Of a stretch of 64,000 nt of DNA, positions 5,624 through 57,575 are shown piece after piece. The position numbers and the translations under genes were made by a program. The stretch is from positions 3,162,001 through 3,226,000 of the forward strand of contig NZ_CP009110.1 of the NCBI RefSeq assembly GCF_000739085.1. Direction: 5' to 3'. The first letter of the stretch is position 1; each line of letters opens with the position of its first letter. The notes beneath the pieces were generated by a model. That model was not told the origin of the DNA. It worked only from the letters and a program-made list of their open reading frames with translations, and did not search any database. This DNA is from Amycolatopsis methanolica 239 (lineage in GTDB: Bacteria > Actinomycetota > Actinomycetes > Mycobacteriales > Pseudonocardiaceae).

Positions 5624-5659
5624 GGGCAGGAAGTCCCAAGCCGAGCGGCTCGAAGTCCC
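5624..5659. promoter_or_regulatory. Two DosR-like boxes upstream of the phosphotransferase gene
   Basis: The sequence GGGCAGGAAGTCCC at 5624-5637 is, on the gene's strand, GGGAC-TTCC-TGCCC. A weaker copy, CGGCT-CGAA-GTCCC, lies at 5646-5659. They sit about 37 and 59 bases upstream of the start at 5587. They share the GGGAC-N4-GGCCC pattern found before many genes in this window. Binding by a DosR-type regulator is inferred. Confidence 0.6.
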
Positions 5660-5724
5660 TTGCACCGCGGGGCCGTCGTGCCCTGACGAGCGTCCTCAGT
5701 GGACGAAGGGCGCGAGCAGGACCG

Positions 5725-6093
5725 TCAGCAGCGCAGCGCGTCGGCCAGGGTGGGCCGGACGTCGAGCACCTCGGTGAGCCCGGTGATCTCCATCGGCCGC
5801 AGCACCCGCTGGTCGGAGGCGACCACCCGGACGCGCGTGGCGCCGCAGCGCTGCTCCAACCGGACCAGCACCCGCATCCCGGCGGAGCCGAAGTACGCCA
5901 CGCCGGTCAGGTCGACGACCAGCAGCGGCGGCAGCCGCTCGGCCGACTCGGTCAGGGCCTGCTCCAGGTGCGTGGCGCTGTCCAGGTCGACATCGCCCGC
6001 GACGCGCACCACGAGCTCGCGGTCCAGGACGTCAACGCCGACGCGCAGCTGGTCGCGCCCCGGCCCGCCCCGGGGAGCACCTTGCTCAGCCAT
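5725..6093 (-). CDS. STAS-domain anti-sigma factor antagonist
   Basis: A 122-residue single STAS domain. The protein reads VRVAGDVDLDSATHLEQAL, then LLVVDLTGVAYFGSAGMRVLVRL. The block DLTGVAYFGSAGM is the family phosphorylation-site region, with the conserved Ser in FGSAG. Such proteins bind anti-sigma kinases of the RsbW type and free a stress sigma factor. No anti-sigma or sigma gene is next to it, so its partner must lie elsewhere. ATG 6093 follows an in-frame GTG at 6096; neither has a clear ribosome site. It is followed at a distance by the phosphotransferase gene on the same strand. Confidence 0.88.
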   Translation of the reverse strand: MAEQGAPRGGPGRDQLRVGVDVLDRELVVRVAGDVDLDSATHLEQALTESAERLPPLLVVDLTGVAYFGSAGMRVLVRLEQRCGATRVRVVASDQRVLRPMEITGLTEVLDVRPTLADALRC

Positions 6094-6150
6094 CACCGCA
6101 CCAGCCTGGCAAACGGCGTGCGGGCAGCACCAGTGCGCCGGCGCCGGTTT

Positions 6151-6576
6151 TCACCGCACGGCCCGTGCGTTCAGCAGGTGCGTCAGCAGGTCGCGCCAGC
6201 TGACGATGCCGACCACCTTGCCGTGGTCGACCACCGGCAGGCAGCGCTGGTGCGCATCGACCAGACGGGTCGCCACCTCCGCGACGTCCGCGTCGGCAGG
6301 CACGGCCAGCGCCGCGACCCGCATCACCGACCGGACCGTGATCGCGTCGACGCCGAGCATCGCACCGCCGTCCGGTCCGGTCCGGCCCCGCAGCGCCGGG
6401 GCGTACCGGGCGGCCGCGAGGTCGCCCTCGGTGACCAGGCCGACGAGTTCGCCGGCCGTGGTCAGCACCGGCAGCGTGGTGTAGCCGCGCTCGAGCATCA
6501 GCGCGGCCGCCTCCTCCAGGGTCGCCCCGGCGGTGACGCCGACGACCGGCGAGCTCATCAGTTCCGGTATCCGCAT
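6151..6576 (-). CDS. CBS-domain pair protein
   Basis: A 141-residue protein made of two CBS motifs: MSSPVVGVTAGATLEEAAALMLERGYTTLPVL followed by LVGLVTEGDLA, and VRSVMRVAALAVPADADVAEVATRL followed by GIVSWRDLL. Stand-alone CBS pairs bind adenosyl nucleotides and act as energy sensors. The mycobacterial Hrp1 (Rv2626c) is a DosR-regulon protein of the same size and design, which fits the neighbourhood. Two DosR-like boxes lie 36 and 58 bases upstream in the divergent gap shared with the Rv1733c-like gene. Confidence 0.9.
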   Translation of the reverse strand: MRIPELMSSPVVGVTAGATLEEAAALMLERGYTTLPVLTTAGELVGLVTEGDLAAARYAPALRGRTGPDGGAMLGVDAITVRSVMRVAALAVPADADVAEVATRLVDAHQRCLPVVDHGKVVGIVSWRDLLTHLLNARAVR

Positions 6577-6611
6577 GCCCCGATCCTCGGCCGGCCGCGG
6601 CGGCGCGGGAA

Positions 6612-6647
6612 GGGACGTAGGGCCGCGACAGCGGAGACCAACGGCCC
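6612..6647. promoter_or_regulatory. Two DosR-like boxes in a divergent promoter region
   Basis: GGGAC-GTAG-GGCCG at 6612-6625 and GAGAC-CAAC-GGCCC at 6634-6647 lie between the CBS gene (start 6576, minus) and the Rv1733c-like gene (start 6705, plus). Both follow the GGGAC-N4-GGCCC pattern. Placement 36-71 bases from either start fits activator sites serving both genes. Confidence 0.6.
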
Positions 6648-6704
6648 TTCGCCGCGCGCCCGCCGGTGACGACCCTGGTGGTCAGGCGACACGAGGAGGA
6701 TCCG

Positions 6705-7268
6705 GTGGAGACTTGGCGACCGCCGCGCCTGCGCGGCAACCCGCTGACGCGGGATTCCGATCGCCGCGAACGGCTGGCGCTGCTCGTGGCCGTCACGGTC
6801 GTGGTGCTCACGGCGCCGTTCGCGGCCCTGCTGGGCGATCGCGTGCACCAGTGGCAGGAGCGGCTGGCGGTAAGCGAGCAGGACACCCGCACCGCGGTGA
6901 CCGCGACGCTGCTCGCCGACGCGCCCCCGCCCGCGGGCTACCCGGAGAGTGGCACCGCCCGCGTCGAGGCGGAATGGCCGCTTCCCGCCGGCGGTACCGC
7001 GACCGGCGAGGTCACCGCCCCGCGTGGCGCGGTCGCCGGCGACGCGGCGCCCATCTGGATCGACGAGAACGGTGAACCCGCGGCGCCCCCGGTGACCGCG
7101 GAGACCGCGGTCGTGAACGGGGTGACGACCGGCGCGCTGAGCTGGGCGGCCGTGATGGCCCTGTGCGGTCTGGGTTTCTGGCTCTACCGCCGGGTGCTCG
7201 ACCGGCGCAGGCGGGACGACTGGTCGGGCGCGTGGGACCGGTTCGACAGCAGGCACACGCCGTTCTGA
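6705..7268 (+). CDS. Rv1733c-like two-helix membrane protein
   Basis: About 187 residues. A first membrane helix (ALLVAVTVVVLTAPFAALLG) follows a short basic N-terminus, then comes an extracytoplasmic part rich in Pro and Gly. A second helix (ALSWAAVMALCGLGFWLYRRVL) follows, and a charged tail ending DRFDSRHTPF. This layout is that of the Rv1733c family, whose founder is a DosR-regulated mycobacterial protein of unknown function. GTG 6705 is chosen over GTG 6666 because a strong ribosome site (GAGGAGGA, 6693-6700) lies just before it. It is followed after 12 bases by another small membrane protein. Confidence 0.85.
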   Translation: METWRPPRLRGNPLTRDSDRRERLALLVAVTVVVLTAPFAALLGDRVHQWQERLAVSEQDTRTAVTATLLADAPPPAGYPESGTARVEAEWPLPAGGTATGEVTAPRGAVAGDAAPIWIDENGEPAAPPVTAETAVVNGVTTGALSWAAVMALCGLGFWLYRRVLDRRRRDDWSGAWDRFDSRHTPF

Positions 7269-7280
7269 GGAAGGGGAGGC

Positions 7281-7712
7281 ATGGACAGGCTCGGGGACCG
7301 GCTGGGGTGGCGCCGCGACGAGCGCCTGGCGCGGCGCAGGCCGTGGCTGGCGTCGCTGACCGCGCTGATCGCCGTCACCGCGTGGGCAGGCGCGGTGGGC
7401 CTCGTGATCGGCGCGGTCGATCTCGACGCCACGGTGACCGCGCGGCTTCCCTTCCACAGTACGGTGTTCGCCGGCATCAGCCTCGGGGTGCTGATCGCCG
7501 TGCCGATGACCGTGGTCACCTGGTTCGCCGCGCGGCGGGACCCGCGCACGAGCCCGGCCGCCGTCGTCGCGGGTACGGTGCTGATCGGGTGGATCGCCGT
7601 CGAGGTCGGCATCGTCCGGACGTTCAACGTCCTGCAGCCGGTGTGCGTGCTGGCCGGGCTGGTGTTGCTGGTGGCCGGGCTGCGGGACTTCGGGCGCGGG
7701 CGTGACCGGTGA
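7281..7712 (+). CDS. Small four-helix membrane protein, unknown function
   Basis: A 143-residue protein with a charged N-terminus (DRLGWRRDERLARRRP) and about four hydrophobic segments: residues 23-46 (ASLTALIAVTAWAGAVGLVIGA), 60-82, 93-108 and 114-133. A strong ribosome site, GGGGAGG, precedes ATG 7281. I do not recognise a named family. It sits between the Rv1733c-like gene and a USP gene, with an 11-base overlap with the latter, so it is part of the same stress transcript. Confidence 0.8.
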   Translation: MDRLGDRLGWRRDERLARRRPWLASLTALIAVTAWAGAVGLVIGAVDLDATVTARLPFHSTVFAGISLGVLIAVPMTVVTWFAARRDPRTSPAAVVAGTVLIGWIAVEVGIVRTFNVLQPVCVLAGLVLLVAGLRDFGRGRDR

Positions 7713-8478
7713 GGTCGTCGCCGGCGTCAGCGCCTCGCCCGGGTCGTGGTGCGGCGCGCAGTGGGCCGCGGATCTGGCGGCGAGCCGCCACCTTCCGCTT
7801 CGCCTCGTGCACGCCGGTGACGCGGACCTGGACGTGCGCCTGGCCGACGGCACCGCGTTCCGGGTGGAGCGGCTGCCCGGACCACCGGCCGACACGCTGC
7901 TCGCGTTGTCGGCGACCGCCGCGTTCCTGGTGTTCGGCCCCTCGGCGCGGGCGCGCACGGCCGACCGGTACCTGCGGTCGCCGGCGCTGGCACTCGCCGC
8001 CCGCAGCGCCTGCCCGGTGGTCGTGGTGCGGGGCCGTGCGGCGCCCTCGGGACCGGTAGTCGCCGGGATCGACGGTTCCGGGGCGGCCGGCCGGGCGATC
8101 GCCGTGGCGTTCCAGGAGGCCGCGTACCGGGGCGTGCCGCTCATCGCGCTGCACACTCGCAGCGACGCGGAGTACGTGACCGCCCCGGGTGACCGGCTTC
8201 GCCTGGAGTGGGAGCGCGCCGCGGGCGACGAGCACCGCACGATCGCCGAGCGGCTGGCCGGCTGGCAGGAGCGGTACCCCGACGTGGTCTTGCACCGGAT
8301 CGTGCGGCGGGACCGCCCGCGGCACCACCTCCTGGAGCTCAGCCGGCGGGCGCAGCTGGTGGTGGTCGGCAGCCGTGGCCGCGGCGGGGTGGGCGGTCTG
8401 GTGCTGGGTTCGACCGGGCGAGTGCTGGCGCAGCGGGCGGGCTGCCCGGTCGTGGTCGTGCCGCCGGGCGGGTCCTGA
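7702..8478 (+). CDS. Universal stress protein, degenerate first domain
   Basis: 258 residues. The second USP domain is canonical, VVAGIDGSGAAGRAIAVAFQEA through GSRGRGGVGGLVLGSTGRV and PVVVV. The first domain is shortened: it lacks most of the helix before its ATP loop, and the usual G-x2-G-x9-G motif is replaced by LVFGPSARARTADRYLRSPALALAA. So probably only the second domain binds nucleotide. GTG 7702 is the first start compatible with VVAGVSASPGSW; the gene overlaps the preceding membrane-protein gene. Confidence 0.92.
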   Translation: MTGEVVAGVSASPGSWCGAQWAADLAASRHLPLRLVHAGDADLDVRLADGTAFRVERLPGPPADTLLALSATAAFLVFGPSARARTADRYLRSPALALAARSACPVVVVRGRAAPSGPVVAGIDGSGAAGRAIAVAFQEAAYRGVPLIALHTRSDAEYVTAPGDRLRLEWERAAGDEHRTIAERLAGWQERYPDVVLHRIVRRDRPRHHLLELSRRAQLVVVGSRGRGGVGGLVLGSTGRVLAQRAGCPVVVVPPGGS

Positions 8479-8492
8479 GGTCCCCGCTTTCG

Positions 8493-8506
8493 AGGACCTT
8501 CGCACC
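8493..8506. promoter_or_regulatory. Weak DosR-like box upstream of flavodoxin gene
   Basis: AGGAC-CTTC-GCACC lies 55-68 bases before ATG 8561, the same distance as stronger copies elsewhere. The match is partial and taken alone would not be convincing. Confidence 0.4.
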
Positions 8507-8560
8507 TGTCCGGACGCACCGGTCCGGTCGCAGGGTTGGGGGAACGGGAAGGAGGAGGCC

Positions 8561-9076
8561 ATGCGAGCACTGGTCGTCTACGAGTCGATGTTCGGCAGCA
8601 CCGAGGAGGTCGCGCGGTCGGTCGCGAAAGGACTGTCCGGCCGGATGCACGTGGACGTGCTCAACGTCGACGACGCGCCCGACGATCTGGCGGGTGTCGA
8701 CCTGGTCGTGGCGGGCGGCCCGACCCACGTGCACGGGCTCACCGGCAAGCGGACCCGCGACGCGGCCGCGCAGCAGGCGGGGGAGCGGCCCCTGCACTCG
8801 CGCAAGCGCGGGCTGCGGGAGTGGCTGGAGGGACTGGCCACCGCGTCGCCGGGGACGCGGGCCGTCACCTTCGACACGCGGATCGACAAACCGGCGTGGC
8901 TGACCGGATCCGCCGCCCGTGCGGCGGCGAAGCGCCTGCGTCGCAAGGGTTACCGGGTGAGCGCGGCCCCGGAGAGCTTCTTCGTGACCGGCAAGGAGGC
9001 CGGTGACCTGCACCCTGGCGAGCTCGAGCGCGCCCGTTCGTGGGGGGAGTCCCTCGGTGACCGCGCCGATGGCTGA
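8561..9076 (+). CDS. Flavodoxin-family protein
   Basis: 171 residues, starting MRALVVYESMFGSTEEVARSVAKGL, the classical FMN phosphate-binding loop of flavodoxins (here ESMFGSTE). The second conserved block is DLVVAGGPTHVHGL. The C-terminal part (FFVTGKEAGDLHPGELERARSWGESL) matches flavodoxin-like proteins found in actinobacterial stress clusters. The start follows a strong ribosome site, GGAGGAGG at 8551. It probably carries electrons to the adjacent nitroreductase-like protein, whose gene overlaps it by 20 bases; this partnership is inferred. Confidence 0.88.
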   Translation: MRALVVYESMFGSTEEVARSVAKGLSGRMHVDVLNVDDAPDDLAGVDLVVAGGPTHVHGLTGKRTRDAAAQQAGERPLHSRKRGLREWLEGLATASPGTRAVTFDTRIDKPAWLTGSAARAAAKRLRRKGYRVSAAPESFFVTGKEAGDLHPGELERARSWGESLGDRADG

Positions 9077-10037
9077 CGGGTTCGCCCGCGCGCTGGCCGC
9101 CGCGGTGAAAGCGCCTTCGCTGCACAACACGCAGCCGTGGCGGTTCGAGGTCCGCGGGTCCCGCGTCGACGTCCTGCTCGATCCCGAGCGGGTGCTCCCG
9201 GTGAGCGATCCCGGCGCGCGGCAGGCCAGGCTCGCCTGCGGCGCGGCCGCGTTCAACCTGGTGGCCGCCCTGCGGGGCGAGGGACGCCGGGTGTCGGTGC
9301 GGTTCCTGCCCGGGCCGCGGCGGCTGGTCACCGTGGAGGTGCTGGGCAGGCGCGAGCCCACCGAGGCGGAACGCCGCCTGGCGGCCGCCGTGCACGCGCG
9401 TCACACCAACCGCAGGCCGTTCCAGGACCGGCCGGTGCCCGAGCGCGCTCGCTCGGCTCTCATCGCCGCGGCCCGGGGCGGCGGGGCGGAGCTGCACCTG
9501 CTCGACCGCGGCGCCCGGTACGACGCCGTCGCCGCGCTGGTGCGGCGCGCGGAACGCCTGCAGGAGACCGACGAGCGCTACCTCGGCGAAGCCCGCCGGT
9601 GGACCGGGCGTCCCCGCGGGGAGACCTCCGGGGTTCCGGCGACCGCGGCGGGACCGCCGGCCAGCCCGGTGCCCGCGCTGGCGTTGCGCGAGTTCGAGGG
9701 CAGCCGGGACCTACCGGCGCGTGAATACGAGCAGCAGCCCCTGCTCGGGGTCGTGACCACCCGCCACCCGGGGCAGGACACCAGGGCCGGGTTCGCGGTC
9801 GAGCGGGTCCTGCTCACGGCGACGGTGCACGGGCTGAGCGCCTCGTTCCTGTCCCAGCCGTTCGACGTGCCCGGTCCGCGCGCCGAGCTGGCCGCGCTGT
9901 TCCGGCCCGAGGGCGAGCCGCACACGTTGCTGCGCCTGGGTTTCGGCTTCACCACGCCGGGCGCGCCGCGGCGGCCCGCGGATGAGGTGACCACAGTGGT
10001 CGGCGAGTCCGGAAGGGCCGAAGGGCTCCCCGGGTGA
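9057..10037 (+). CDS. Acg-like nitroreductase-family protein
   Basis: About 326 residues. The opening ADGFARALAAAVKAPSLHNTQPWRFEV is the hallmark of the Acg family (Rv2032/Rv3131 type), degenerate twin-domain nitroreductases that bind FMN and are induced by DosR in mycobacteria. The ARHTNRRPF motif and the C-terminal GLSASFLSQPFDVPGPR block are also present. GTG 9057 is preferred because GGGGGGAG lies 9 bases before it; ATG 9069 is an alternative. The family may sequester flavin rather than catalyse reduction. Confidence 0.9.
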   Translation: MTAPMADGFARALAAAVKAPSLHNTQPWRFEVRGSRVDVLLDPERVLPVSDPGARQARLACGAAAFNLVAALRGEGRRVSVRFLPGPRRLVTVEVLGRREPTEAERRLAAAVHARHTNRRPFQDRPVPERARSALIAAARGGGAELHLLDRGARYDAVAALVRRAERLQETDERYLGEARRWTGRPRGETSGVPATAAGPPASPVPALALREFEGSRDLPAREYEQQPLLGVVTTRHPGQDTRAGFAVERVLLTATVHGLSASFLSQPFDVPGPRAELAALFRPEGEPHTLLRLGFGFTTPGAPRRPADEVTTVVGESGRAEGLPG

Positions 10038-10086
10038 GGCCGCCCGGCCCTGGCCGGCACCGGGCCCGGGACGCGAGAGTCGGAGC

Positions 10087-10881
10087 ATGGCGCGTGAACA
10101 GAAGGCGGTGCTCGCCTGTGTCGACGGATCGGCACGGGCGCTGGACGCGGTGCGCTGGGCGGCGCGGGACGCCGCGTTGCGGAAGCGGCCGTTGCGGCTG
10201 ATCCACGTCGGGGAGAACGCGGACTGCCTCGCCGCGGCCGAGGACGCGGCGGCGGTTCCGGGCGTGGAGATCCGGAGCGGGACGCGAACCGGCCACCCCG
10301 CGGAACGCCTGATCGAGGAATCGGCCACCGCGTCGGTGGTGGTGCTGGGCTCGCACGGGCTCGGCGGGTTCCCCGGCATGCTGCTCGGGTCCGTGGCGGG
10401 CGCGCTCGCGGCGTACGCGCACTGTCCGGTCGTCGTGGTGCGCGGCGCCCCACCGGAGGACGCTCCCGTGGCCGCCGGGATCGACGCCTCGCCGGGCGGT
10501 GACGCGGCACTGGCGTTCGCGCTCGACGAAGCGAACCTGCGCCGCGTGCCGCTGCTCGCGGTGCACACCTGGACCGACATGACGATGGGGGAGACCTGGT
10601 CGGTGCTGCCGATCGACGCCGACTACGGCGCCGTCGCCGAGGACGAGCGCCGCCTGCTGGCCGAGCGGCTCGCCGGGTGGCGGGAGAAGTACCCGGACGT
10701 GGACCTGCGCCCGGTGGTGGTGCGCGACCGTCCGGTGCGCGGGCTGCTCACGGCAGGCCCGGACGCCCAGCTCATCGTGGTGGGCTCGCGCGGGCGCGCC
10801 GATTTCGGCGGTGTGGGGCTGGGTTCGACGAGCCAGGCGCTGCTGCACCACGGCCCGTGCCCGGTGGCGGTCGTCCGGTGA
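10087..10881 (+). CDS. Universal stress protein (tandem USP)
   Basis: 264 residues with two USP domains. Domain 1 runs from VLACVDGSARALDAVRWAARDAAL to GSHGLGGFPGMLLGSVAGAL and PVVVV. Domain 2 runs from VAAGIDASPGGDAALAFALDEANL to [21 protein letters not shown]. Both ATP-binding glycine motifs are intact. The stop overlaps the GTG start of ppk2 (GTGA), so nucleotide sensing and polyphosphate metabolism are in one transcript. No clear ribosome site is seen, and only a weak GGGAC box lies near 10068. Confidence 0.94.
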   Translation: MAREQKAVLACVDGSARALDAVRWAARDAALRKRPLRLIHVGENADCLAAAEDAAAVPGVEIRSGTRTGHPAERLIEESATASVVVLGSHGLGGFPGMLLGSVAGALAAYAHCPVVVVRGAPPEDAPVAAGIDASPGGDAALAFALDEANLRRVPLLAVHTWTDMTMGETWSVLPIDADYGAVAEDERRLLAERLAGWREKYPDVDLRPVVVRDRPVRGLLTAGPDAQLIVVGSRGRADFGGVGLGSTSQALLHHGPCPVAVVR

Positions 10882-11660
10882 GCCTGCGCAGGGACGCCTA
10901 CCGGCGCGAGCTGGTGCGGCTGCAGGGCGAGCTGGTGAAGATCCAGGAGTGGGTCCGCGCCGAGCGCAGGCGGCTCGTGGTGATCTTCGAGGGCCGGGAC
11001 GGCGCGGGCAAGGGCAGCACCGTCAAGCGGGTCACCGAGTACCTCAACCCGCGGGTGGCGCGCATCGTCGCCCTGCCCCGGCCGGACGAGCGGGAGCGCG
11101 GCGAGTGGTACTTCCAGCGCTACGTCGCGCAGCTGCCCGCGGCCGGGGAGATCGTGCTGATGGACCGCAGCTGGTACAACCGCGCGGGCGTGGAACGGGT
11201 CATGGGGTTCTGCACGACCTCCCAGTACCAGCTGTTCCTGCGGCAGTGCCCGATCTTCGAGCGGATGCTCTCCGAGGACGGCATGCTGCTGCGCAAGTAC
11301 TGGTTCTCGGTGAGCCAGGACGAACAGGAGCGCCGCATCCGCGCCCGGCTGGACGACCCGATGCGCCGGTGGAAGCTGTCCCCGGTTGACCTGGACTCGC
11401 TGACCCGGTGGGACGACTACTCGCGCGCCAAGGACGACATGCTCGTCCACACCGACATCGCGGAAGCGCCGTGGCACCTGGTGGACAGCGACGACAAGCG
11501 CGCGGCCCGGATCAACATGATCCATCACCTCGTCACCAGCATCCCGTACATGGAGGTGCCGCCGCCCGCGCTGGAGGTCCCGCCGCGGCCGCCGTCGAAC
11601 TACGTGCGGCCGCCGTCGAACCCGGGCAGCTACGTCCCGGACCACGCGAGCACGCTGTGA
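10878..11660 (+). CDS. ppk2: Polyphosphate kinase 2
   Basis: 260 residues, the usual size for single-domain PPK2. Walker A EGRDGAGKGST lies at residues 38-48, Walker B-type DRSWYNRAGVERVMGF follows, and the lid-region FSVSQDEQERRIRARLDDP and HTDIAEAPWHLVDSDDKRAAR are intact. PPK2 makes NTPs from polyphosphate and NDPs or the reverse; the direction cannot be read from sequence. A proline-rich tail (VPPPALEVPPRPP with a repeated NYVRPPSN-like unit) extends beyond the catalytic core. GTG 10878 overlaps the USP stop. The gene adds a polyphosphate-based ATP source to the phosphoketolase-acetate kinase route. Confidence 0.96.
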   Translation: MSLRRDAYRRELVRLQGELVKIQEWVRAERRRLVVIFEGRDGAGKGSTVKRVTEYLNPRVARIVALPRPDERERGEWYFQRYVAQLPAAGEIVLMDRSWYNRAGVERVMGFCTTSQYQLFLRQCPIFERMLSEDGMLLRKYWFSVSQDEQERRIRARLDDPMRRWKLSPVDLDSLTRWDDYSRAKDDMLVHTDIAEAPWHLVDSDDKRAARINMIHHLVTSIPYMEVPPPALEVPPRPPSNYVRPPSNPGSYVPDHASTL

Positions 11661-11667
11661 GCGCCCG

Positions 11668-12114
11668 CTACTGCGCGGCGTGGGCCGTCATGACGACGAC
11701 CGGGCAGTGGGCGTGCCGGACCACCTGGGTCGCGACGCTGCCCACCAGCAGTTCGGTCAGCGGCCGCGCGCCGTGCGAGCCGACCACGAGCAGGTCGGCG
11801 TCGGCGGAGGCCTTGTTCAGCTCGGTGGCCGGGTCGCCGCTGAGGACGACCTCCTCCACCTCCGGCGCCCCCGGTTCACGGGTCTCCTGGACCGTCGAGT
11901 GCAGCAGGCCGGTGTAGGCGCTGTCGTCGCCGACGGGGATCCGCCCGTGCGGCTGGATGGCGTAGGACGTGCCCGGCAGCAGTTCGTCGCGGACGCGCAC
12001 CAGCATCGCGCGCACCCGGTCCCCCGGCCGCGCCTCCGCCAGCGCCCACCGCAGGGCGGCGCGGCTCTGCGCCGAACCGTCCACGCCGACCACGATCGTG
12101 CGGGATTCGCTCAT
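11668..12114 (-). CDS. Universal stress protein (single domain)
   Basis: 148 residues, one USP domain: TIVVGVDGSAQSRAALRWALAEA at the N-terminus and GSHGARPLTELLVGSVATQVVRHAHCPVVVM at the C-terminus, with the G-x2-G-x9-G(S) ATP motif slightly altered (GSHGARPLTELLVGS). It is convergent with ppk2, only 7 bases apart. An exact copy of the strongest DosR-like box lies 81-94 bases before the ATG at 12114. Confidence 0.94.
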   Translation of the reverse strand: MSESRTIVVGVDGSAQSRAALRWALAEARPGDRVRAMLVRVRDELLPGTSYAIQPHGRIPVGDDSAYTGLLHSTVQETREPGAPEVEEVVLSGDPATELNKASADADLLVVGSHGARPLTELLVGSVATQVVRHAHCPVVVMTAHAAQ

Positions 12115-12194
12115 CGGACTTCCTCCCTGTCAGGCTGCGGCCAGCGTCGCGTGTGGGGGCGGCGCTCCGGCAGGGCAGAACGGACCGGCCGGCG

Positions 12195-12208
12195 GGGACT
12201 TCCGGCCC
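12195..12208. promoter_or_regulatory. DosR-like box, best match
   Basis: GGGACTTCCGGCCC. The identical 14-mer, in reverse orientation, precedes the USP gene at 19.2 kb, and a one-base variant precedes the USP gene at 57.6 kb. Here it lies upstream of the minus-strand USP gene starting at 12114. Confidence 0.7.
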
Positions 12209-12431
12209 CTCCCCGCCGTCCCCGCGGCGGCGACCGAGGAGGACTGCGGCTCACCGACCGCTGGGCCTCGCTGTTCCCGCGGGTCGCCTACCGAGCGGGG
12301 CTGGCATTGCGTTCACGGCCGACCGGGGCACCGGCGACCGGGAGCGCGATCGCCTGCGCCGAGCGGCGGGTCCTGCTGCGTCGCGCCTGGTCCTGACCGC
12401 CGCCCGGCGGGGCCGGAATGCCCCCGGACCC

Positions 12432-12445
12432 GGGACCTTCGTGCC
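12432..12445. promoter_or_regulatory. DosR-like box upstream of DUF4389 gene
   Basis: GGGAC-CTTC-GTGCC lies 66-79 bases before ATG 12511. The left half-site is perfect; the right half keeps GNNCC. Confidence 0.5.
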
Positions 12446-12510
12446 TGGTGACCACGCCACCCTCGCGCGCAGCGTGGGCTTTCGACCGATTCTTCTGCCG
12501 GAGGTGTCCG

Positions 12511-13917
12511 ATGGACGTCCGCATGACCTACCCGGTCCGGGTCGAGGGGAACCTCGCCACCGGGCTGTCCCGGTGGCTGTGGCTGGTGAAGTGGCTGCTG
12601 GTCATCCCGCACCTGGTGGTGCTTTCGTTCCTGTGGCTCGGATTCTTCGTGCTCACCGTGGCCGCGTTCTTCGCGATCCTGGTGACCGGCCGCTACCCCC
12701 GCGCGATCTTCGACTTCAACGTCGGCGTGCTGCGCTGGTCGTGGCGGGTGCAGTTCTACTCCTACAGCGCGCTCGGCACGGACGCCTACCCGCCGTTCAC
12801 GCTCGCCGACGTGCCCGCCTACCCGGCGCGGCTGGAGATCGACTACCCGGAGCGGCTGTCCCGTGGGCTCGTGCTGGTGAAGTGGTGGCTGCTGGCCATC
12901 CCGCACTACATCATCGTCGGGTTGTTCGTCGGCGGCGGCACCTGGCTGCTCGGGTACACCGACGACCGCGGGTTCACCTGGGCGGCGGGCGGCCTGGTCG
13001 GCATCCTGGTGCTGGTGGCCGCGATCGTGCTGCTGTTCACCGGCCGCTACCCGAAGCCGGTCTTCGACTTCGTGCTCGGGATGGACCGCTGGGTGCTGCG
13101 GGTCGCCGCGTACGCCGCGCTCATGACCGACGCCTACCCGCCGTTCCGCCTCGACGTGGGCGCGCACGACCCGGCGGGGCCGGTCACCGAGCCGTCCTCG
13201 CCCGAGCACTGGCAGCCGGCGAACCACCGCTGGACCGGCGGCAAGATCACGTCCGTGGTCGCGGGCGCGGTGCTCGCGCTCACCGCCATGGGCCTGCTCA
13301 CCGGCGGCAGCACGCTGCTGTGGGCGGACCGCGCGGAGCGGGACGCCGACGGCTACCTGTCGGCGTCGAACAGCCTCAGCGCCACCGGCTACGCCATCGC
13401 GACGAAGGACATCGAGCTGGCCGGCACGGCCACCGACTGGAGCGGCATCCAGCGCCTCGTCGGTGACGTGCGGGTGCGGGCGACCGCGGCCGATCCGGCG
13501 ACCCCGGTGTTCATCGGCGTCGCGCCGTCCGCCGCCGCGGCGGGGTTCCTCGCGGGCGCCCAGTACGCCACGGTGACCGACTGGTCCAGCGACCGGTACG
13601 TCGTGCACCAGGGCAACCGCACCCTGCCGGCGCCGGAAACCGCGGGCATCTGGACGGCGCAGGCGAGCGGCGGCGGAACCCAGACGGTGGTGTGGCCGAT
13701 GCGCAGCGGCGACTGGACGGTCGTGGTGATGAACGCCGACGGCTCACCCGGGGTGAACGTGGTGACCGAGATCGGCGCGACGGTGCCCGCCCTCGACGAG
13801 ATCGCCTGGATCGTGATCGGGGTCGGCCTGGTGCTGCTGGCCGGCGGTGTGGCCCTGATCGCGGTGCCGGTGCACCGGGCCGCGCAGCGTCCCGTCGGCG
13901 CGCAGCCGGAGTCCTGA
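12511..13917 (+). CDS. DUF4389-repeat membrane protein
   Basis: 468 residues. Two related N-terminal units each read R-L-SRWLWLVKWLLVIPH / RGLVLVKWWLLAIPH, then a hydrophobic stretch and TGRYPRAIFDFNVGVLRW / TGRYPKPVFDFVLGMDRW. These are tandem DUF4389 domains (about residues 5-95 and 105-200). A further membrane helix lies near residue 250 (VVAGAVLALTAMGLLTGGSTLL), then an extracytoplasmic domain, and a last helix near 430-450. The function is unknown. ATG 12511 follows a good ribosome site (GGAGG). It is 6 bases upstream of the WS/DGAT gene, so the two are probably co-transcribed. Confidence 0.88.
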   Translation: MDVRMTYPVRVEGNLATGLSRWLWLVKWLLVIPHLVVLSFLWLGFFVLTVAAFFAILVTGRYPRAIFDFNVGVLRWSWRVQFYSYSALGTDAYPPFTLADVPAYPARLEIDYPERLSRGLVLVKWWLLAIPHYIIVGLFVGGGTWLLGYTDDRGFTWAAGGLVGILVLVAAIVLLFTGRYPKPVFDFVLGMDRWVLRVAAYAALMTDAYPPFRLDVGAHDPAGPVTEPSSPEHWQPANHRWTGGKITSVVAGAVLALTAMGLLTGGSTLLWADRAERDADGYLSASNSLSATGYAIATKDIELAGTATDWSGIQRLVGDVRVRATAADPATPVFIGVAPSAAAAGFLAGAQYATVTDWSSDRYVVHQGNRTLPAPETAGIWTAQASGGGTQTVVWPMRSGDWTVVVMNADGSPGVNVVTEIGATVPALDEIAWIVIGVGLVLLAGGVALIAVPVHRAAQRPVGAQPES

Positions 13918-13923
13918 CGCGAC

Positions 13924-15300
13924 ATGGAGCGACTGTCCCCGCTCGATCTCGGCATGCTGTGGCCGGACGACTTCGGCTGGCCGGAGGACATCGGTGTGCT
14001 GGCGGTCCTGGACGGGAACCGGACGGCGGGGCACTTCTCCCTCGACCTGGCACGCGAGGTCGTCGGGACGCGTCTCCCGCTGGTCCGCCGGATGCGGCAG
14101 GTCCTGCGGGTGCCGCGGTTCGGGCTGGGCGCGCCGTACTGGACGGATGCGTCCACAGTGGACGTCGATGACCACGTGCGGGCGGCCGAGGTGCCCGCTC
14201 CGGGTGACGACGAGCAGCTCCTGGGCGTGGTCGAGCGGATCCGGCGGCGCCGGCTGGACCGGTCCCGTCCGCTGTGGGAGATGTGGGTGCTGACCGGGCT
14301 GGCGGGCGGCCGCACCGGGCTGTTCGTCCGGCTCCACCACACGATCGCCGACGGGGTCGCCGCGGTCGCGCTGCTCGGTGCGTTCTTCGACCCCGGGCCC
14401 GAGGTGCGCGCCCTCGCTCCGCCCTGGCCGGAGGCTGAGCCGGAACCGACGGTGCCGCAATTGCTGGCGGACAACGCGCGGCGCCGGTGGCGGGAGGTGC
14501 GCCGGGGCGTGTCCGCGCTGGCCCGCCTGCCGGAATCGGTCTCCGCGGTGCGCCAAGCATGGCCGGCGTTCCGGGAGTTCGCCGCGGAGGGACGGGCGCC
14601 GCGGACGAGCCTGAACACGCCGATCGGGCCGGGGCGGCGGTTCGCGCTCGTCCGCGGCGACCTGCCGCTCGCGAAGCGGATCGCGGCCGCGCACGGCGCG
14701 AAGGTCAACGACGTGCTGATGGCGGCGATGTCCGGCGCGCTGCGTGAACTCCTGTGCGCCCGGGGCGAGCCGGTGGACGCACTGGTGCTTCGCGCCTACG
14801 TGCCGGTGTCCCTGCACCGGGAGCCGCGGGACCGGCTCCGCGGCAACTTCGACGGCATGATGCTGGTGCCGTTTCCGGTCGGGGTGGCCGATCCGGTGCG
14901 GCGGCTCGAGATGATCGCCGCCGAGACGGCGAAGCGCAAGAAGCACAAGCGTTCCGCGGGCGGTGGCGCGCTCTTCCGCGTCAGCGCGTTGCAGCGGGCG
15001 GTCATGCGCCGGATGGACCGGCAACGGTGGGCGAACGTCTACGCCGCGAACGTGCCGGGCCCGCCGGAGCCCCTCCACTTCGCGGGTGCGCGCGTGCTGG
15101 AGTTGTTCCCGATCGTGCCGCTGATCGGCAACGTCACCCTCGGCCTCGGCGCGCTGTCCTACGCGGGGCAGCTGGCGATCACGGTCGTGGGCGACGCGGA
15201 CGCCTGCCCGGACGTCGAGGTGTTCGCCCGCGGCGCCGCGCACGCGCTGGACGCGCTCGCGGGCTCCCGCGGCAGGGACTTTGGTCCAGTCGATCGGTGA
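13924..15300 (+). CDS. Wax ester synthase/diacylglycerol acyltransferase (WS/DGAT)
   Basis: 458 residues beginning MERLSPLDLGMLWPDD. The catalytic HHxxxDG motif is present as HHTIADG at residues 138-144, and the conserved C-terminal region has the family's VYAANVPGPPEPLHFAGARV and PLIGNVTLGLGALSYAG blocks. These enzymes make triacylglycerol or wax esters from acyl-CoA at the membrane. Mycobacterial Tgs1 is the DosR-regulated member that stores lipid during hypoxia, which fits this island. Only 6 bases separate it from the DUF4389 gene. Confidence 0.93.
   Translation: MERLSPLDLGMLWPDDFGWPEDIGVLAVLDGNRTAGHFSLDLAREVVGTRLPLVRRMRQVLRVPRFGLGAPYWTDASTVDVDDHVRAAEVPAPGDDEQLLGVVERIRRRRLDRSRPLWEMWVLTGLAGGRTGLFVRLHHTIADGVAAVALLGAFFDPGPEVRALAPPWPEAEPEPTVPQLLADNARRRWREVRRGVSALARLPESVSAVRQAWPAFREFAAEGRAPRTSLNTPIGPGRRFALVRGDLPLAKRIAAAHGAKVNDVLMAAMSGALRELLCARGEPVDALVLRAYVPVSLHREPRDRLRGNFDGMMLVPFPVGVADPVRRLEMIAAETAKRKKHKRSAGGGALFRVSALQRAVMRRMDRQRWANVYAANVPGPPEPLHFAGARVLELFPIVPLIGNVTLGLGALSYAGQLAITVVGDADACPDVEVFARGAAHALDALAGSRGRDFGPVDR
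15275..15288. promoter_or_regulatory. DosR-like box inside the 3' end of the WS/DGAT gene
   Basis: GGGAC-TTTG-GTCCA is a near-perfect inverted repeat and the closest match here to the mycobacterial GGGAC...GTCCC form. It lies about 97-110 bases before ATG 15385 and could drive the small membrane protein and metal ATPase genes. It overlaps coding sequence, so chance is possible. Confidence 0.5.
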
Positions 15301-15384
15301 CGCTCGGCCGCGTCGCGGGGCCGGGCGCACGCGGTTCGCTGGGAGGCGCCGGGCACCGGCATGTGAATCCCCTCGGAGGCGGAC

Positions 15385-47602: not shown

Positions 47603-48760
47603 ATGACGCGTGCGCCGGAGACCCCCGCGGAAGCGCTGCTGGAGCAGCTCGCCTCGCGGCATTCGGAGCTGCTCGTCCTGTCGGACAGTTCGCTCGCGAT
47701 GAAGACGGTGGCCCGCCGGATCCGGGAGCTGGGCGAGTTCGACATGTCCCTGGTGGGCCGGCTCGAGTCGGGGCGCCGGCTGGTGCACCGGAGCTGGCAG
47801 GGCACCACGAGCACGGCGTTGCACCGGCTTGTCGTGCCCGAGGGCGTCGGCCTGGGCGGCAAGAGCATCGCCCAGCGGCGGCCGGTGTGGGTCCGCGACT
47901 ACTGCACGTCGGACGCGATCACGCACGACTTCGACGAGCTGGTCGCGCGGGAGGGGCTCGGTGCGATGCTGGCCGTCCCCATGATCTACGACGGGGAAGT
48001 GCTCGGCGCCGTGTACGTCGGCATCCGCGCCGAGGCCTCCTTCGGCGACCAGGTCATCGCGCGGCTGGAGGAGGCGGCGGCCGTCGCGTCGGTGACGTTG
48101 GTCAGCTCGGAGCGGGCGAAGCTGCAGACCGGGGTGGCGCTGGACGCCGAGCGGCGGCGGATGGCAGCCGACCTGCACGATTCGGTCAGCCCGGTCCTCT
48201 TCCGCATCGGCGCCGAGCTCCGCAGCCTGCGGTCGATGGACGACCTCGACCGGATCCGGGACCGGCTCGACGAGGTGCAGCGGCAGGTGGCCTCGGTGAG
48301 CGCGCTGCTGCGCAACTCCCTGGCCCACCTCAACGAACAACCCCCGGAGCGCCGGCTGGCGGTGGTCATCCAGGAGGACTGCGAGGCCTTCGAGGAGCGG
48401 ACCGGTCTGCCGGCCTCCTTCGTGGCGCTCGCGGACATCCCCGAGCTGGGGCCGGGCCGGACGGAGGCGCTGACCAGCGTCGTGCGCGAAGCGCTGGTCA
48501 ACGTCGAGAAGCACGCCCAGGCGTCCACCGTGGTCGTGAGCCTCGTGGTGGCGGGCGGGCGGCTCACCGTCGCGGTCGCCGACGACGGGAACGGCTGGGC
48601 CAGCGGCGACCTGGACAAGGCAGGCCACCTCGGCCTGCCGCTGTCCCTGCGCCGGATGGAACGGGTGGGCGGCGGCATGTCGATCATCGGCAACGAGGAC
48701 GGTGGCACGACCGTGCGGGCCTGGGTGCCCTGCGTGGCCGAGGGCGCCGACGATGTCTGA
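47603..48760 (+). CDS. GAF-domain sensor histidine kinase (NarL type)
   Basis: 385 residues, soluble. A coiled N-terminus (ASRHSELLVLSDSSLAMKTVARRIREL) leads to a GAF domain (about 50-170: GLGGKSIAQRRPVWVRDY, GAMLAVPMIYDGEVLGAVYVG). The HisKA_3 domain follows, with phospho-His 192 in ADLHDSVSPVLFRIG, and a HATPase with VVREALVNVEKHAQA and VADDGNGW. No heme-His pattern of DosS is evident, so I read it as sensing a pathway ligand. ATG 47603 directly follows a GTG. It overlaps the regulator gene by 8 bases. Confidence 0.92.
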   Translation: MTRAPETPAEALLEQLASRHSELLVLSDSSLAMKTVARRIRELGEFDMSLVGRLESGRRLVHRSWQGTTSTALHRLVVPEGVGLGGKSIAQRRPVWVRDYCTSDAITHDFDELVAREGLGAMLAVPMIYDGEVLGAVYVGIRAEASFGDQVIARLEEAAAVASVTLVSSERAKLQTGVALDAERRRMAADLHDSVSPVLFRIGAELRSLRSMDDLDRIRDRLDEVQRQVASVSALLRNSLAHLNEQPPERRLAVVIQEDCEAFEERTGLPASFVALADIPELGPGRTEALTSVVREALVNVEKHAQASTVVVSLVVAGGRLTVAVADDGNGWASGDLDKAGHLGLPLSLRRMERVGGGMSIIGNEDGGTTVRAWVPCVAEGADDV

Positions 48761-49388
48761 CCACGCCGGCGTCCGGGTGCTCGTGGTGGACGACCATCCG
48801 GTGATCCGCGGCGGGGTCGAGCTGCTCGCCGCCGAAGACCCGGCGATCACCGTGGTGGGCGGCGCGAGCACGGGGCACGAGGCGATCAAGGTCGCGCAGG
48901 AGGTGGCCACCGACGTCATCCTGCTGGACCTGCGCCTTCCGGACATACCGGCACCCGAACTCGTCACCCAGCTGCGGCGGGTCGCACCGCGCGTGAAGAT
49001 CCTGCTGTTCACGGCCTTCGCCGATCACGGCGCGATCGACGTGCTGATCGAGGCGGGTGCGGACGGCTGCCTGGTCAAGGACATCACCGGCGGTGACTTC
49101 GCCACCGCGGTGCGCCGGGTGGCCCGCGGTGTCCGGGTCGTCGATCCCCGGCTGACCGGCCGGCACGCGTCCGCGACCCCGGAACTGCTGTTCCGGGTCG
49201 GTCTCACCAGGCGTGAGTACGAGGTGCTGCGGCTCGCCGCGATGGGGCACAGCAATCCGGAGATCGCCGACCGGCTCGCGCTCGCCCGCAACACCGTGAA
49301 GACGTACCTGCAGACCGCGATGCAGAAACTGAATGCGCGGAACAGGGTCGAGGCCATCGCCAAGGCCCACGAACTCCGGCTGCTCTAG
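48753..49388 (+). CDS. NarL/LuxR-family response regulator
   Basis: 211 residues. The receiver domain has VLVVDDHPVIRGGVELL, phospho-acceptor Asp59 in LLDLRLPD, and the Lys of VKDITGGD. The LuxR-type helix-turn-helix is LTRREYEVLRLAAMGHSNPEIADRLALARNTVKTYLQTAMQKLNARNR. It pairs with the kinase upstream. Natural targets are the flanking catabolic operon and possibly the palindrome at 41664 and 50388; this is inferred. Confidence 0.95.
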   Translation: MSDHAGVRVLVVDDHPVIRGGVELLAAEDPAITVVGGASTGHEAIKVAQEVATDVILLDLRLPDIPAPELVTQLRRVAPRVKILLFTAFADHGAIDVLIEAGADGCLVKDITGGDFATAVRRVARGVRVVDPRLTGRHASATPELLFRVGLTRREYEVLRLAAMGHSNPEIADRLALARNTVKTYLQTAMQKLNARNRVEAIAKAHELRLL

Positions 49389-54479: not shown

Positions 54480-54805
54480 TGAGATTTGTCGGGCCGGTGC
54501 TCGACTCCGTGCGTGAGCCGGTGCGCCTGGGCGACGGTGAGGGTGGCGTCGACGCCGACTGTCAGTTCGGCGTGTGGCGAGGGACCGATCCAGCGGATGC
54601 GCACCTGCCCGGCGCGCTGCTCCCCGTCGACGGCGGCTGCGGCGTGCTCGACCAGTTCGACCGTGGTGCGATCGACGGGCCGATGATGGCGCCGGCCAGC
54701 GGGAACCCGAGCCCGACCCCGGCCGCGCCGAGCAAGGCGAGCGAGGTGAACCCCGCGGTGCGGCCGTGCAGCCCGTCGGCGACCAGCGCGGCCGACCCGA
54801 GATCT
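54480..54805 (-). pseudogene. Cation diffusion facilitator remnant
   Basis: One minus-strand frame reads SAALVADGLHGRTAGFTSLALLGAAGVGLGFPLAGAIIGPSIA, the helix 5-6 region of CDF metal/H+ antiporters (with His and Asp metal ligands). Another frame continues VELVEHAAAAVDGEQRAGQVRIRWIGPSPHAELTVGVDATLTVAQAHRLTHGVEH, the cytoplasmic domain. Helices 1-4 and the end are missing and the frames do not match. Confidence 0.75.
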
Positions 54806-54810
54806 TGCGG

Positions 54811-56799
54811 TCAGAGGATGCCGCGGCGGACGTCGCCGGGGAGGCGGTTGGCGCGTTCGAGGTCGCGGCGGGCGCTGGAGCGCAGTTGCCAGGGGACGCT
54901 GACGACCATCACGCCCGGTTCGAAGAGCAGGTGTCCCTTGAGTCGTAGCGCGCTTTGGTTGTGCAGGAGGTTTTCCCACCAGTGCCCGACGACGTATTCG
55001 GGGATGTAGACGCAGATGACGTCGCGGGGGCTGACCCGGCGCATGTTCTTGATGTAGGCCACCACGGGCCGGGTGATCTCGCGGTAGGGGGATTCGAGGA
55101 CTTTCAGCGGCACCTTGACGTCGTAGATCTCCCAGGTCCGTTCGAGTTCGCGGGTTTCGGCCTCGTCGACGTTGATGGTGATCGCGGTCAGCGTGTCCGG
55201 GTTCGCGGCCCTGGCGAAGGCGAGGGCACGCTGGGTCGGTTTGTGCAGGGTGGAGATCAGCACCAGGGCGTGCACCCGGCTGGGAAGGAGGGCGCCGGTT
55301 TCGTCGGGGGCGAGTTCTTCGCGAACCCGGCGGTAGTGGCCCTGGATGACGCGCATCATCACGAACAGCGCCGGGATGGCTATGACCACGAGGTAGGCGC
55401 CGTGGGAGAACTTGGTGATCAGCACGACCGCCAGCACCACGCCGGTGAAGCAGGCGCCGAATGCGTTGATGATCCGGGCGCGGTGGAGGCGCCGTCGTTC
55501 TGCGCCCGTGCCGGCTGCGCGGAGTTCGCGGTTCCAATGCCGCACCATGCCGGTCTGGCAGAGGGTGAACGAGGTGAACACGCCGATGATGTAGAGCTGG
55601 ATCAGCCTGGTGGTGGACCCGTCGAAGCTATAGATCAGTACCGCGGCGATCAGGGCGAGCAGGATGATCCCGTTGGAGAAGGTCAACCGGTCACCTCGTG
55701 TGTGCAGCTGTCGCGGCAGGTAGCGGTCCCGGGCCAGGATCGAGCAGAGCAGCGGGAAGCCGTTGAACGCGGTGTTGGCCGCGAGGATCAGGATCAGCGC
55801 GGCGCTGGCCTGGAGATAGTAGAACCCGACGCTGTTGTCGCCGCCGAACACGGCCGCGGCGACCTGCGCGATGACCGTGCGCTGGTCGCCGTTCGCGCAG
55901 TCGCCGGGGTAGCCGATGAGGTCGCAGGCGTTTTCGGCGATCTTGACCTGGGAGACCAGGGCCAGGAGGGTGATCCCGCCGAACATTGTGAGCGACAGGA
56001 GGCCCATGGCGGTCATGGTGCGGGCGGCGTTGAGGCCCTTCGGCTTGCGGAAGGCCGGAACCCCGTTGGAGATCGCCTCCGCCCCGGTCAGGGCGGTGCA
56101 GCCGGAGGAGAACGCCCGCAGCACCAGGAATACCAGGGCCAGCCCGGACAGCCCGACGTGCTCGGCACGGATGCCGTAGTGCGCGCTCTCGGCCACCGGA
56201 CGGTGACCGACAGCGGTCTCGACCAGTCCGACCACGATCATCAGCAGCACACCGGCCACGAACGCGTAGGTGGGGACGGCGAAGATGCGTCCCGACTCCC
56301 GCACCCCGCGCAGGTTCATCGCCGTCAGCAGCAGGACGCACACGAAGTTGATCAGCATCCGGTGGGGGCCGAGCTCGGGGACTGCCGAGATGATGTTGTC
56401 CACCCCCGCGGCGACCGACACGGCGACGGTCAGGACGTAATCGACCAGCAGCGCCCCGGCGACCACCAGGCCCGCGTCGCGGCCGAGGTTGCGCGAGGCG
56501 ACCTCGTAGGACCCGCCGCCGCTGGGGTATGCCTGCACCACTTGCCGGTAGGACAGCACTACCACGACCAGCAGCGCCACGACCGCGAGCGCGATCCACG
56601 ACGTCAGGTGCAGGAAAGCCACCCCGCCCAGGGCGAGGATGAGCAGGATCTCCTGGGTGGCATAGGTGACCGACGACAGCGGGTCACTGGCGAAGATCGG
56701 CAGTGCGATCCGCTTCGGCAGCAACTCGTGCGCGAGGTGGTCGCTGCGGAACGGGCGGCCGACCACCAGGCGCTTGAGCACGGACGTCGCGGTGGGCAC
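54811..56799 (-). CDS. KimA-type APC-superfamily permease
   Basis: 662 residues. About 12 membrane helices span residues 30-510 (FASDPLSSVTYATQEILLILALGG, SYRQVVQAYPSGGGSYEVASRNLGRDAGLVVAGALLVDYVLTVAVSVAAGVD). A soluble C-terminal domain follows (about 515-662: RVHALVLISTLHKPTQRALAFARA...). This is the arrangement of the KimA/YdaO potassium importer family; Rv2690c is a mycobacterial relative. Potassium as the substrate is a family inference. The start is GTG 56799. It is directly followed on the same strand by the CDF remnant. Confidence 0.88.
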   Translation of the reverse strand: MPTATSVLKRLVVGRPFRSDHLAHELLPKRIALPIFASDPLSSVTYATQEILLILALGGVAFLHLTSWIALAVVALLVVVVLSYRQVVQAYPSGGGSYEVASRNLGRDAGLVVAGALLVDYVLTVAVSVAAGVDNIISAVPELGPHRMLINFVCVLLLTAMNLRGVRESGRIFAVPTYAFVAGVLLMIVVGLVETAVGHRPVAESAHYGIRAEHVGLSGLALVFLVLRAFSSGCTALTGAEAISNGVPAFRKPKGLNAARTMTAMGLLSLTMFGGITLLALVSQVKIAENACDLIGYPGDCANGDQRTVIAQVAAAVFGGDNSVGFYYLQASAALILILAANTAFNGFPLLCSILARDRYLPRQLHTRGDRLTFSNGIILLALIAAVLIYSFDGSTTRLIQLYIIGVFTSFTLCQTGMVRHWNRELRAAGTGAERRRLHRARIINAFGACFTGVVLAVVLITKFSHGAYLVVIAIPALFVMMRVIQGHYRRVREELAPDETGALLPSRVHALVLISTLHKPTQRALAFARAANPDTLTAITINVDEAETRELERTWEIYDVKVPLKVLESPYREITRPVVAYIKNMRRVSPRDVICVYIPEYVVGHWWENLLHNQSALRLKGHLLFEPGVMVVSVPWQLRSSARRDLERANRLPGDVRRGIL

Positions 56800-57575
56800 G
56801 CCCGAAGAGTAGGCAGACCGTGATCGGCCGGGCGGTCCGCGAGCCGTATAAATGCCGTCAAAATCCGCGTCCGTGCCGTCCGGGACACGTCCGGAAGGAC
56901 ACGCCGCCCGTCGTGGGTGTCAATGCGCCGGCACCGCACCATCGGCGCAGGCGAGCGCATCGCCCACCGCAATGGCACTTGACATGACCCTGTCGTCCTG
57001 GGACGCCACAACAGCATCAGCCGAGTTCCGATCACCGCGGATGAGCAGAGTCGTCCACCCCGATCACTCGGGGTACCGACCTGGTCGGCAACGGCAATTG
57101 CAGCAGCGCCCGAACGCCGTTTTGCCTTACGGTGCAACACGGATGGTGGTGGCTGAAACCCATCCCCACACGCGCTCTACCAGCGGAAACGTTTTGAGCT
57201 ACCGTAGGGGAAGGGGCGTCATCGCTGGGCGGATGGCATCCTGCGTGAACCCCTGGACAGCACCGGTTATCACTCTGCATCTCGTGGTATGCGGAAGGAG
57301 GGCCGGAACCGGCCGCGGGCGGCGGGCAGTTCCGCGGCGCTGAGGAAGAGCGGAACGTCCCACTGCCGCGCCAGGGTGCCAGCCGTTGCGGAGTGTCCGG
57401 GCAGGATGTGGGTGAGCGGGATCCCCGCGGCGGGTTGAGCCCGGGAGTCCGCTGCGCCTGCCGGTGCGTCCGCAACGGGGCCGCGCGACGTGCGGATGAG
57501 CAGGGCCGGAAGTCCTCGCCGCGGATGACCATGGCCCGCAGCGGCGCCCGGCCCGCTGTTCCTAGCGTCGGTGTC
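56800..57575. other. 776-base divergent intergenic region
   Basis: No supported gene between the KimA-type permease and the USP gene. The only recognised element is the DosR-like box at 57503. On the minus strand near 57300-57440 a stretch reads AAGIPLTHILPGHSATAGTLARQWDVPLFLSAAEL, which looks protein-like but is not identified. I looked for a c-di-AMP riboswitch before the permease and saw none. Confidence 0.5.
57503..57516. promoter_or_regulatory. DosR-like box upstream of USP
   Basis: GGGCCGGAAGTCCT, one mismatch from the 12195 and 19093 copies, 60-73 bases before the ATG at 57576; spacing identical to the 19.2-kb USP gene. Confidence 0.7.

Follow-up and report, generated by a model that had tools for sequence, protein, structure and literature searches.

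Paired 14-bp boxes with a phased -10 hexamer as predicted operators of a DosR/DevR regulon in Amycolatopsis methanolica

A 64,000-nucleotide stretch of the Amycolatopsis methanolica 239 genome (bases 3162001-3226000 of the single 7,237,391-base contig; hereafter the window) carries a family of 14-bp boxes in front of genes for universal stress proteins (USP), a CBS-domain protein and several other proteins. These boxes are very probably the operators of a DosR/DevR regulon, for which we infer binding, phosphorylation, signal and induction from sequence. In the proposed mechanism, two twin-GAF kinases encoded elsewhere in the genome, DosS1 and DosS2, probably haem-bound, would sense loss of O2 or the presence of NO/CO and would phosphorylate DosR. 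Dimers of DosR would then occupy two 14-bp boxes of unequal strength, spaced by about 22 bp, or two helical turns; the proximal dimer, located where the -35 region begins on its upstream side, would recruit RNA polymerase to the -10 hexamer that follows after 22-24 nt. The predicted targets are USP, CBS, Rv1733c-family, Acg-family, Rv2632c-like, flavodoxin, PPK2, DUF4389-wax ester/triacylglycerol synthase (WS/DGAT) and phosphoketolase/acetate kinase genes, and dosR1 and dosR2 would also be among them. A preliminary description of the window had proposed a DosR-like regulon outside mycobacteria, and this proposal is well supported by the target families and by the DosR/DosS relatives in the genome. 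It did not report that boxes pair at 22 bp, that a -10 is phased with them or that DosR/DosS genes are present elsewhere in the genome.

Boxes, box pairs and the -10 hexamer

Genes were called with our own caller (four doubtful open reading frames (ORFs) were removed and one USP gene was added before counting), and controls were reversed patterns, reversed sequences or shuffles, depending on the test. Allowing at most one mismatch, GGGACN4GKCCC was found 16 times per 9,769 non-coding and 14 times per 54,218 coding positions of the window (odds ratio 6.35, p 1.4e-6). An equal frequency in coding and upstream DNA, named beforehand as the outcome contrary to a regulon, was thus not seen. In 13 cases a non-coding box is no more than 250 bp from a called start; nine of these boxes precede regulon-type genes and four (27960, 41600, 53392 and 62569) do not. 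As first described, the spacer is TTCC in the three boxes linked to USP genes (12195-12208, 19093-19106 and 57503-57516), and no two of these are more than one base apart; the box at 5624-5637 is one base away. The further claim of boxes before about ten named genes holds in part: most of these gene types do have an upstream box, but the window has just two copies of the exact pattern, the majority of the ten sites show one or two mismatches, PLDc_N has a weak pair (score 15) and the PPOX-like gene has one good box.

The exact sequence GGGACTTCCGGCCC occurs five times in the genome, while its reversed control does not occur at all. All five sites stand 55-80 nt 5′ of a gene start, one of them being scored as coding by the caller through overlap with the end of the upstream ORF. 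The genes behind them are two USP genes of the window (one broken), a CBS-led operon, an Rv2632c-like gene and a USP gene elsewhere. Among 14 one-mismatch copies, four are intergenic (before an Rv2632c-like, a phosphotransferase, an aldehyde dehydrogenase and a USP gene) and ten were called coding; among 11 examined of the 193 two-mismatch copies, three are intergenic. Boxes fitting the looser pattern GGGACTTNNGNCCC are found upstream of targets, the weaker members differing by 1-4 bases; this pattern gave 72 matches against 33 controls in 18 other Amycolatopsis genomes and 7 against 4 in the A. methanolica genome. Position 4 of the box is A in 24 of 25 sites of this genome, which had been chosen for their likeness to GGGAC.

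The boxes tend to stand in pairs, typically one stronger and one weaker box. In the window, a spacing of 22 bp separates 5624/5646, 6612/6634, 10015/10037, 12410/12432 and 15275/15297. Recurrence was followed in 37 loci with homologues of three window genes from 19 Amycolatopsis genomes, which yielded 36 promoters; exclusion of nine promoters from A. methanolica and two close relatives left 27 distant ones; since one genome contributes additional CBS copies, these are homologues but not all orthologues. A pair with a score of at least 16 at 21-23 bp is present in 14 of the 27, against a mean of 1.1 and a maximum of 3 in 40 shuffles. At score 15 the count is 20 (shuffle mean 5.1, maximum 10), and at score 17 it is nine (mean 0.18, maximum 2). 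Four distant homologues of the DUF4389 promoter have pairs 23 bp apart, and 21 of 23 pair loci examined in relatives are intergenic.

A -10-like hexamer follows the pairs at a fixed distance. NANNNT lies 22-24 nt 3′ of the proximal box in 15 of 17 A. methanolica promoters, often as TAGCGT or CAGCGT, and occurs once elsewhere in the 34-nt stretches of the same promoters; it is absent at the usual place in the DUF6069 and broken USP promoters. Outside the 17, a second Rv2632c-like gene has a hexamer at 24 by eye. In the distant homologues, YANNNT was found at 21-24 nt in 14 of 22 promoters. Several hexamers end 6-8 nt 5′ of the start codon, which suggests that several target mRNAs are leaderless or nearly so.

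The composite layout of box pair plus -10 was scanned over 241 kb of DNA, with 30 raw matches against one in the reversed sequence. Counted by hexamer, the matches come down to 18: regulon-type genes follow 13 of these, an unrelated gene follows one, three are in coding sequence and one is without a same-strand gene. Because some of these promoters had served to choose the thresholds, loci near dosR elsewhere provide a fairer test. The layout was found there 47 times against 3 controls in 20 Amycolatopsis loci, 58 against 14 in 21 Nocardia loci, 74 against 6 in 27 Mycobacteriaceae loci and 7 against 2 in six other Pseudonocardiaceae loci. By gene calls from our own caller, for which the window served as training set, 43 of the 47, 41 of the 58 and 47 of the 74 matches in the first three groups stand before a gene. 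With the near-identical locus L040 left out, the commonest hexamer offset is 23-24 in all three groups, and the commonest pair spacing is 22 in Amycolatopsis and Nocardia and 21-22 in Mycobacteriaceae. The adjacency of a strong and a weak site with the proximal one at -35, as in the DosR regulon, was also found.

DosR is present in all 19 Amycolatopsis genomes, of which 12 have one or more of the three window genes searched for. With at most two mismatches allowed, the 12 carriers have 47 pairs (5 in controls) and the seven non-carriers 6 (15 in controls, eight of them from one genome; Fisher p 3e-7); these counts take both strands, so near-palindromic pairs are counted twice. One carrier, G009, has no pairs, and the single motif shows a weak carrier trend (Mann-Whitney p 0.045). 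The 12 carriers and the seven non-carriers that keep DosR form a natural comparison for gain or loss of a dormancy regulon.

Regulators and alternative explanations

The preliminary description found no DosR/DosS pair, which is true of the window; a genome search of the kind it called for located three DosR and two DosS genes elsewhere. The three close DosR paralogues are at 3515036 (DosR1), 3826638 (82%) and 3487123 (74%), two further relatives have 57% and 55% identity, and altogether 60 genome places match DosR at E <=0.001. DosR1 aligns over residues 1-216 with M. tuberculosis DevR (3c3w; E 2.3e-94), the next-best structure being VraR (5hev; E 3.6e-40). The recognition helix reads LAEKTVKNYVSRLL in aligned DevR, DosR1 and DosR3 and LAEKTIKNYVSRLL in DosR2, residues that we take to be DNA contacts, and LAEKT[V/I]KNYVSRLL is common to DosR1-3. 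Among named genomes, the closest DosR proteins are those of Amycolatopsis, with A. tucumanensis best at 96%. No DosR model was among the 25 NCBIfam matches listed, which were all below cut-off; assignment of DosR and DosS by family model was dropped because no model passed its cut-off.

The two DosS-type kinases, DosS1 (3518387-3520108) and DosS2 (3780154-3781830), are 82% alike and have the same GAF-GAF-HisKA_3-HATPase order. DosS1 matches GAF-A of DosT and DevS, the ATPase domains of both, and a "GAF family protein" (2vjw) that is presumably DevS GAF-B. The HPPM histidine of GAF-A, which we take to be the haem ligand in DevS, is kept in DosS1 in comparison with 2vzw and 2y8h and is visible in DosS2, and an HHPPM stretch is present in both kinases. 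DosS1 and DosS2 are candidate haem proteins that may respond to O2 loss or to NO/CO. The composite layout stands 5′ of dosR1 and dosR2, and of dosR in several relatives. Gas vesicle genes (Gas_vesicle, GvpL_GvpF) adjoin dosR2 (L139:7331-13959, genome ~3827-3834 kb), and a Spore_YtfJ gene at their end is preceded by a weak box pair.

It is conceivable, though unlikely, that DosR binds the boxes but that its signal is nutrient, redox or developmental stress and not hypoxia or NO, as partly proposed for the Streptomyces regulator OsdR. The host is a soil actinomycete, the Spore_YtfJ gene has its weak box pair, and OsdR acts on development and stress genes as well (PMC5069765). Against this stand the twin-GAF order and the HHPPM stretch, both kept in the two kinases.

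A second alternative, that a NarL/LuxR-type regulator other than DosR1-3 binds the boxes, appears improbable. The 60 genome places matching DosR offer many candidates, and the DosR-like regulators at genome 184159 and 5815909 still have a helix that opens with LAEKTVKN. Another candidate is a one-GAF histidine kinase and NarL-type regulator at 47600-49388 on the plus strand of the window. This pair has the same broad domain types as DosR/DosS but differs in its regulator, 37% identical to DosR1, in its single GAF domain and in its recognition helix (LARNTVKTYLQ), and for the last two reasons it was rejected as the regulator of the boxes. The same layout around mycobacterial dosR genes, the published binding of DevR to paired sites (PMC3029386) and the layout in the dosR1 and dosR2 promoters themselves also favor DosR. 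The 55% regulator with LAEKTVKN lies in a row of its own (L140:3949-6598, ~5814-5817 kb) with a GAF kinase and, by eye, a PPOX-like start, and this row is possibly a second DosR-like circuit.

Several observations weigh against DosR control of the boxes as described above. First, the short motif, simply counted, is about as frequent as chance predicts in the window and in the genome as a whole, and such counts were rejected as evidence: exact GGGAC-N4-G[G/T]CCC was found at two window sites (12195 and 19093) with 1.76 expected from shuffles, GGGAC-N4-GGCCC with at most one mismatch 25 times against 27.5, and GGGACTTCCGGCCC with at most two mismatches 212 times genome-wide against 224 controls. 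Second, less stringent combinations discriminate poorly. The pair pattern with at most three mismatches gave 20 matches against 14 controls in the A. methanolica genome, at 17 distinct places, of which ten are before regulon-type genes (one, Spore_YtfJ, doubtful) and five fall within window bases 5,624-15,310; one box plus -10 gave 16 against 9, and 4 against 1 at a higher cut-off, and was rejected as a weak target predictor. Third, the composite thresholds were set on promoters that were counted again in the 17-promoter -10 test and in the 241-kb scan, four of the 21 printed promoters were left out of the -10 test, and for three of the 17 the weak box was put in register by eye. By eye, the hexamer is absent from three of those four, the promoters of an aldehyde dehydrogenase and two nitroreductase genes. 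Fourth, the layout was not found near dosR in three Rhodococcus loci (0 against 1), the seven non-carrier genomes (G003, G005, G006, G007, G008, G014 and G018) keep DosR and show no pair enrichment, and pairs are weak or absent at dosR3, at dosS2 and at the USP and Rv1733c-like genes that follow dosS2. The raw counts are what would be expected if the boxes were chance matches in DNA of 70-75% G+C with gene families merely clustered, but this explanation has almost no probability left, because position, spacing, -10 phase and recurrence in homologous promoters exceed shuffles and reversed sequence.

Predicted targets and the phosphoketolase operon

One predicted target is a plus-strand gene row that begins outside the window. 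It is led by a CBS gene, whose exact box (L006:19011-19024) is ~980 bp before the window, and continues at 51-4038 of the window with a USP gene (its start is upstream of position 1), phosphoketolase XFP (566-2947) and acetate kinase AckA (2929-4038). Two close relatives also have the box pair in the CBS promoter and XFP behind it, and the same pair with an XFP 80-84% identical is present in three more distant genomes, one of them without an intervening USP match; this comparison covered CBS, USP and XFP. Near the other CBS homologues examined, XFP was absent within the 2.2 kb inspected. The CBS-USP-phosphoketolase-acetate kinase operon is a predicted DosR target. No published account of phosphoketolase as a DosR target was found in a search of titles and opening abstract lines that was light on subscription journals. 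If the prediction is right, substrate-level phosphorylation through this operon would be part of the dormancy response, which suggests one route to ATP without oxygen.

Other predicted targets lie within the window. The gene for a phosphotransferase-like protein with an AAA_33 domain (4145-5587, minus strand) is preceded by a proximal box at 5624-5637 and a distal box at 5646-5659, with a -10-like GAGCCT at 5594-5599; this pair is kept in two close relatives. The pair at 6612-6625 and 6634-6647 lies between divergent genes, a CBS-domain gene (6151-6576, minus; GAGGAT at 6583-6588) and an Rv1733c family gene (6705-7268, plus; GACCCT at 6671-6676), the product of the latter scoring 163.4 bits with NF050032 (curated cut-off 80). 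On the plus strand, boxes at 8471-8484 and 8493-8506 and CAGGGT at 8531-8536 precede a flavodoxin gene (8561-9076), which overlaps an Acg family oxidoreductase gene (9057-10037; 271.6 bits with NF047509, curated cut-off 199). A weak plus-strand pair (score 15; 10015-10050) with GAGAGT 24 nt after it stands before a USP (10087-10881) and a PPK2 (10878-11660) gene, both on the plus strand. The minus-strand USP gene at 11668-12114 has a distal exact GGGACTTCCGGCCC at 12195-12208, a weaker proximal box at 12173-12186 and GACGCT at 12143-12148. Back on the plus strand, the pair at 12410-12423 and 12432-12445, with CAGCGT at 12470-12475, precedes the genes for a DUF4389 protein (12511-13917) and a WS/DGAT family protein (13924-15300), and a pair at 15275-15310 precedes a DUF6069 gene and a gene for a heavy-metal P-type ATPase with a hemerythrin domain (15418-18020), with no hexamer at the usual place.

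Three further boxes or pairs precede a PPOX-like gene and two USP genes. A single plus-strand box, GGGACCTTCGACCC, lies at 18389-18402, 35 nt 5′ of the GTG start of the PPOX-like gene at 18438, with GACGAT 23 nt after it; the combination is not significant by itself and is weak evidence. An exact box at 19093-19106, in minus orientation, and a weak partner at 19115-19128 precede the plus-strand USP gene from 19172. The second half of this gene (19172-20060) is in another frame and NANNNT is absent at its usual place, so that it looks like a decaying copy. The third gene, the USP gene at 57576-58457 on the plus strand, has a box at 57503-57516, a weak partner at 57525-57538 and TAGCGT at 57563-57568. 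The box at 41600, before an aldehyde dehydrogenase gene, has neither a notable partner box nor a -10.

Elsewhere in the genome, boxes are linked to Rv2632c-like genes (PF08962), a PPK2 gene at 3406 kb and USP genes at 3506, 3778 and 4546 kb; an Acg-type nitroreductase gene at 4116 kb has a box without a 22-bp partner or -10. At 3406009-3406044 (L132), a box pair readable on both strands lies between the PPK2 gene and, by eye, a divergent SulP-transporter-like gene. The target families matching those of the DosR regulon are Rv1733c, Acg, Rv2632c-like, USP, CBS and WS/DGAT, whose membership in the M. tuberculosis regulon is partly our assumption. Two other features of the window were noted. A cation P-type ATPase gene is in two ORFs (58483-59835 and 59903-60877), and short ORFs at 22600-26770, resembling molybdenum-hydroxylase fragments by eye, adjoin a transposase-like ORF (25853-26770).

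Less expected among these results are the one layout across genera, the phosphoketolase operon as a target and the pair enrichment in the 12 carriers alone. We suggest tentatively that one fixed DosR layout (boxes about 22 bp apart, the -10 23-24 nt on) extends across Pseudonocardiaceae, Nocardia and mycobacteria and is enough to read dormancy regulons from sequence, and that Amycolatopsis captured the phosphoketolase operon, with acetyl phosphate, its intermediate, possibly feeding back on DosR. The layout is a testable rule for predicting DosR targets, and a DosR/DevR dormancy system with its promoter layout in an antibiotic-producing soil genus could be studied outside pathogens.

Comparison with known DosR-type systems

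No report of an Amycolatopsis DosR regulon was found among the titles and opening abstract lines searched, again with light coverage of subscription journals. A regulon of this type outside mycobacteria is already in print for Streptomyces. That article (PMC5069765) describes OsdR, a DevR orthologue whose targets around its own gene include USP and nitroreductase genes, and reports that acetyl phosphate phosphorylates OsdR in vitro. The A. methanolica system resembles OsdR/OsdK of S. coelicolor in having a DevR-type regulator in a non-mycobacterial host with USP and nitroreductase genes among its predicted targets. It differs in its boxes, the strongest of which read GGGACTTCCGGCCC, whereas the consensus printed for OsdR is the GGGCC-type AGGGCCGATCGGCCCT.

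The mycobacterial DosR/DevR and DosS/DosT system is close in several respects. The regulator and the kinases have relatives here, and the target families, the pair spacing and the -10 phase near dosR are alike. GGGACTTCCGGCCC fits the consensus GGGACTTNNGNCCCT printed for M. smegmatis (PMC6448022), and GGCCC is the second half at 10 of 12 sites near mycobacterial dosR; the separate Amycolatopsis consensus suggested in the preliminary description was therefore rejected. The paired strong and weak sites with the proximal one at -35 also have their counterpart in M. tuberculosis DevR, for which adjacent high- and low-affinity sites, close packing and a proximal site overlapping the -35 region are described in PMC3029386. 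Two differences from mycobacterial DosR stand out: the three close DosR and two DosS copies of A. methanolica and, read from this genome's side alone, its predicted XFP, acetate kinase and PPK2 targets.

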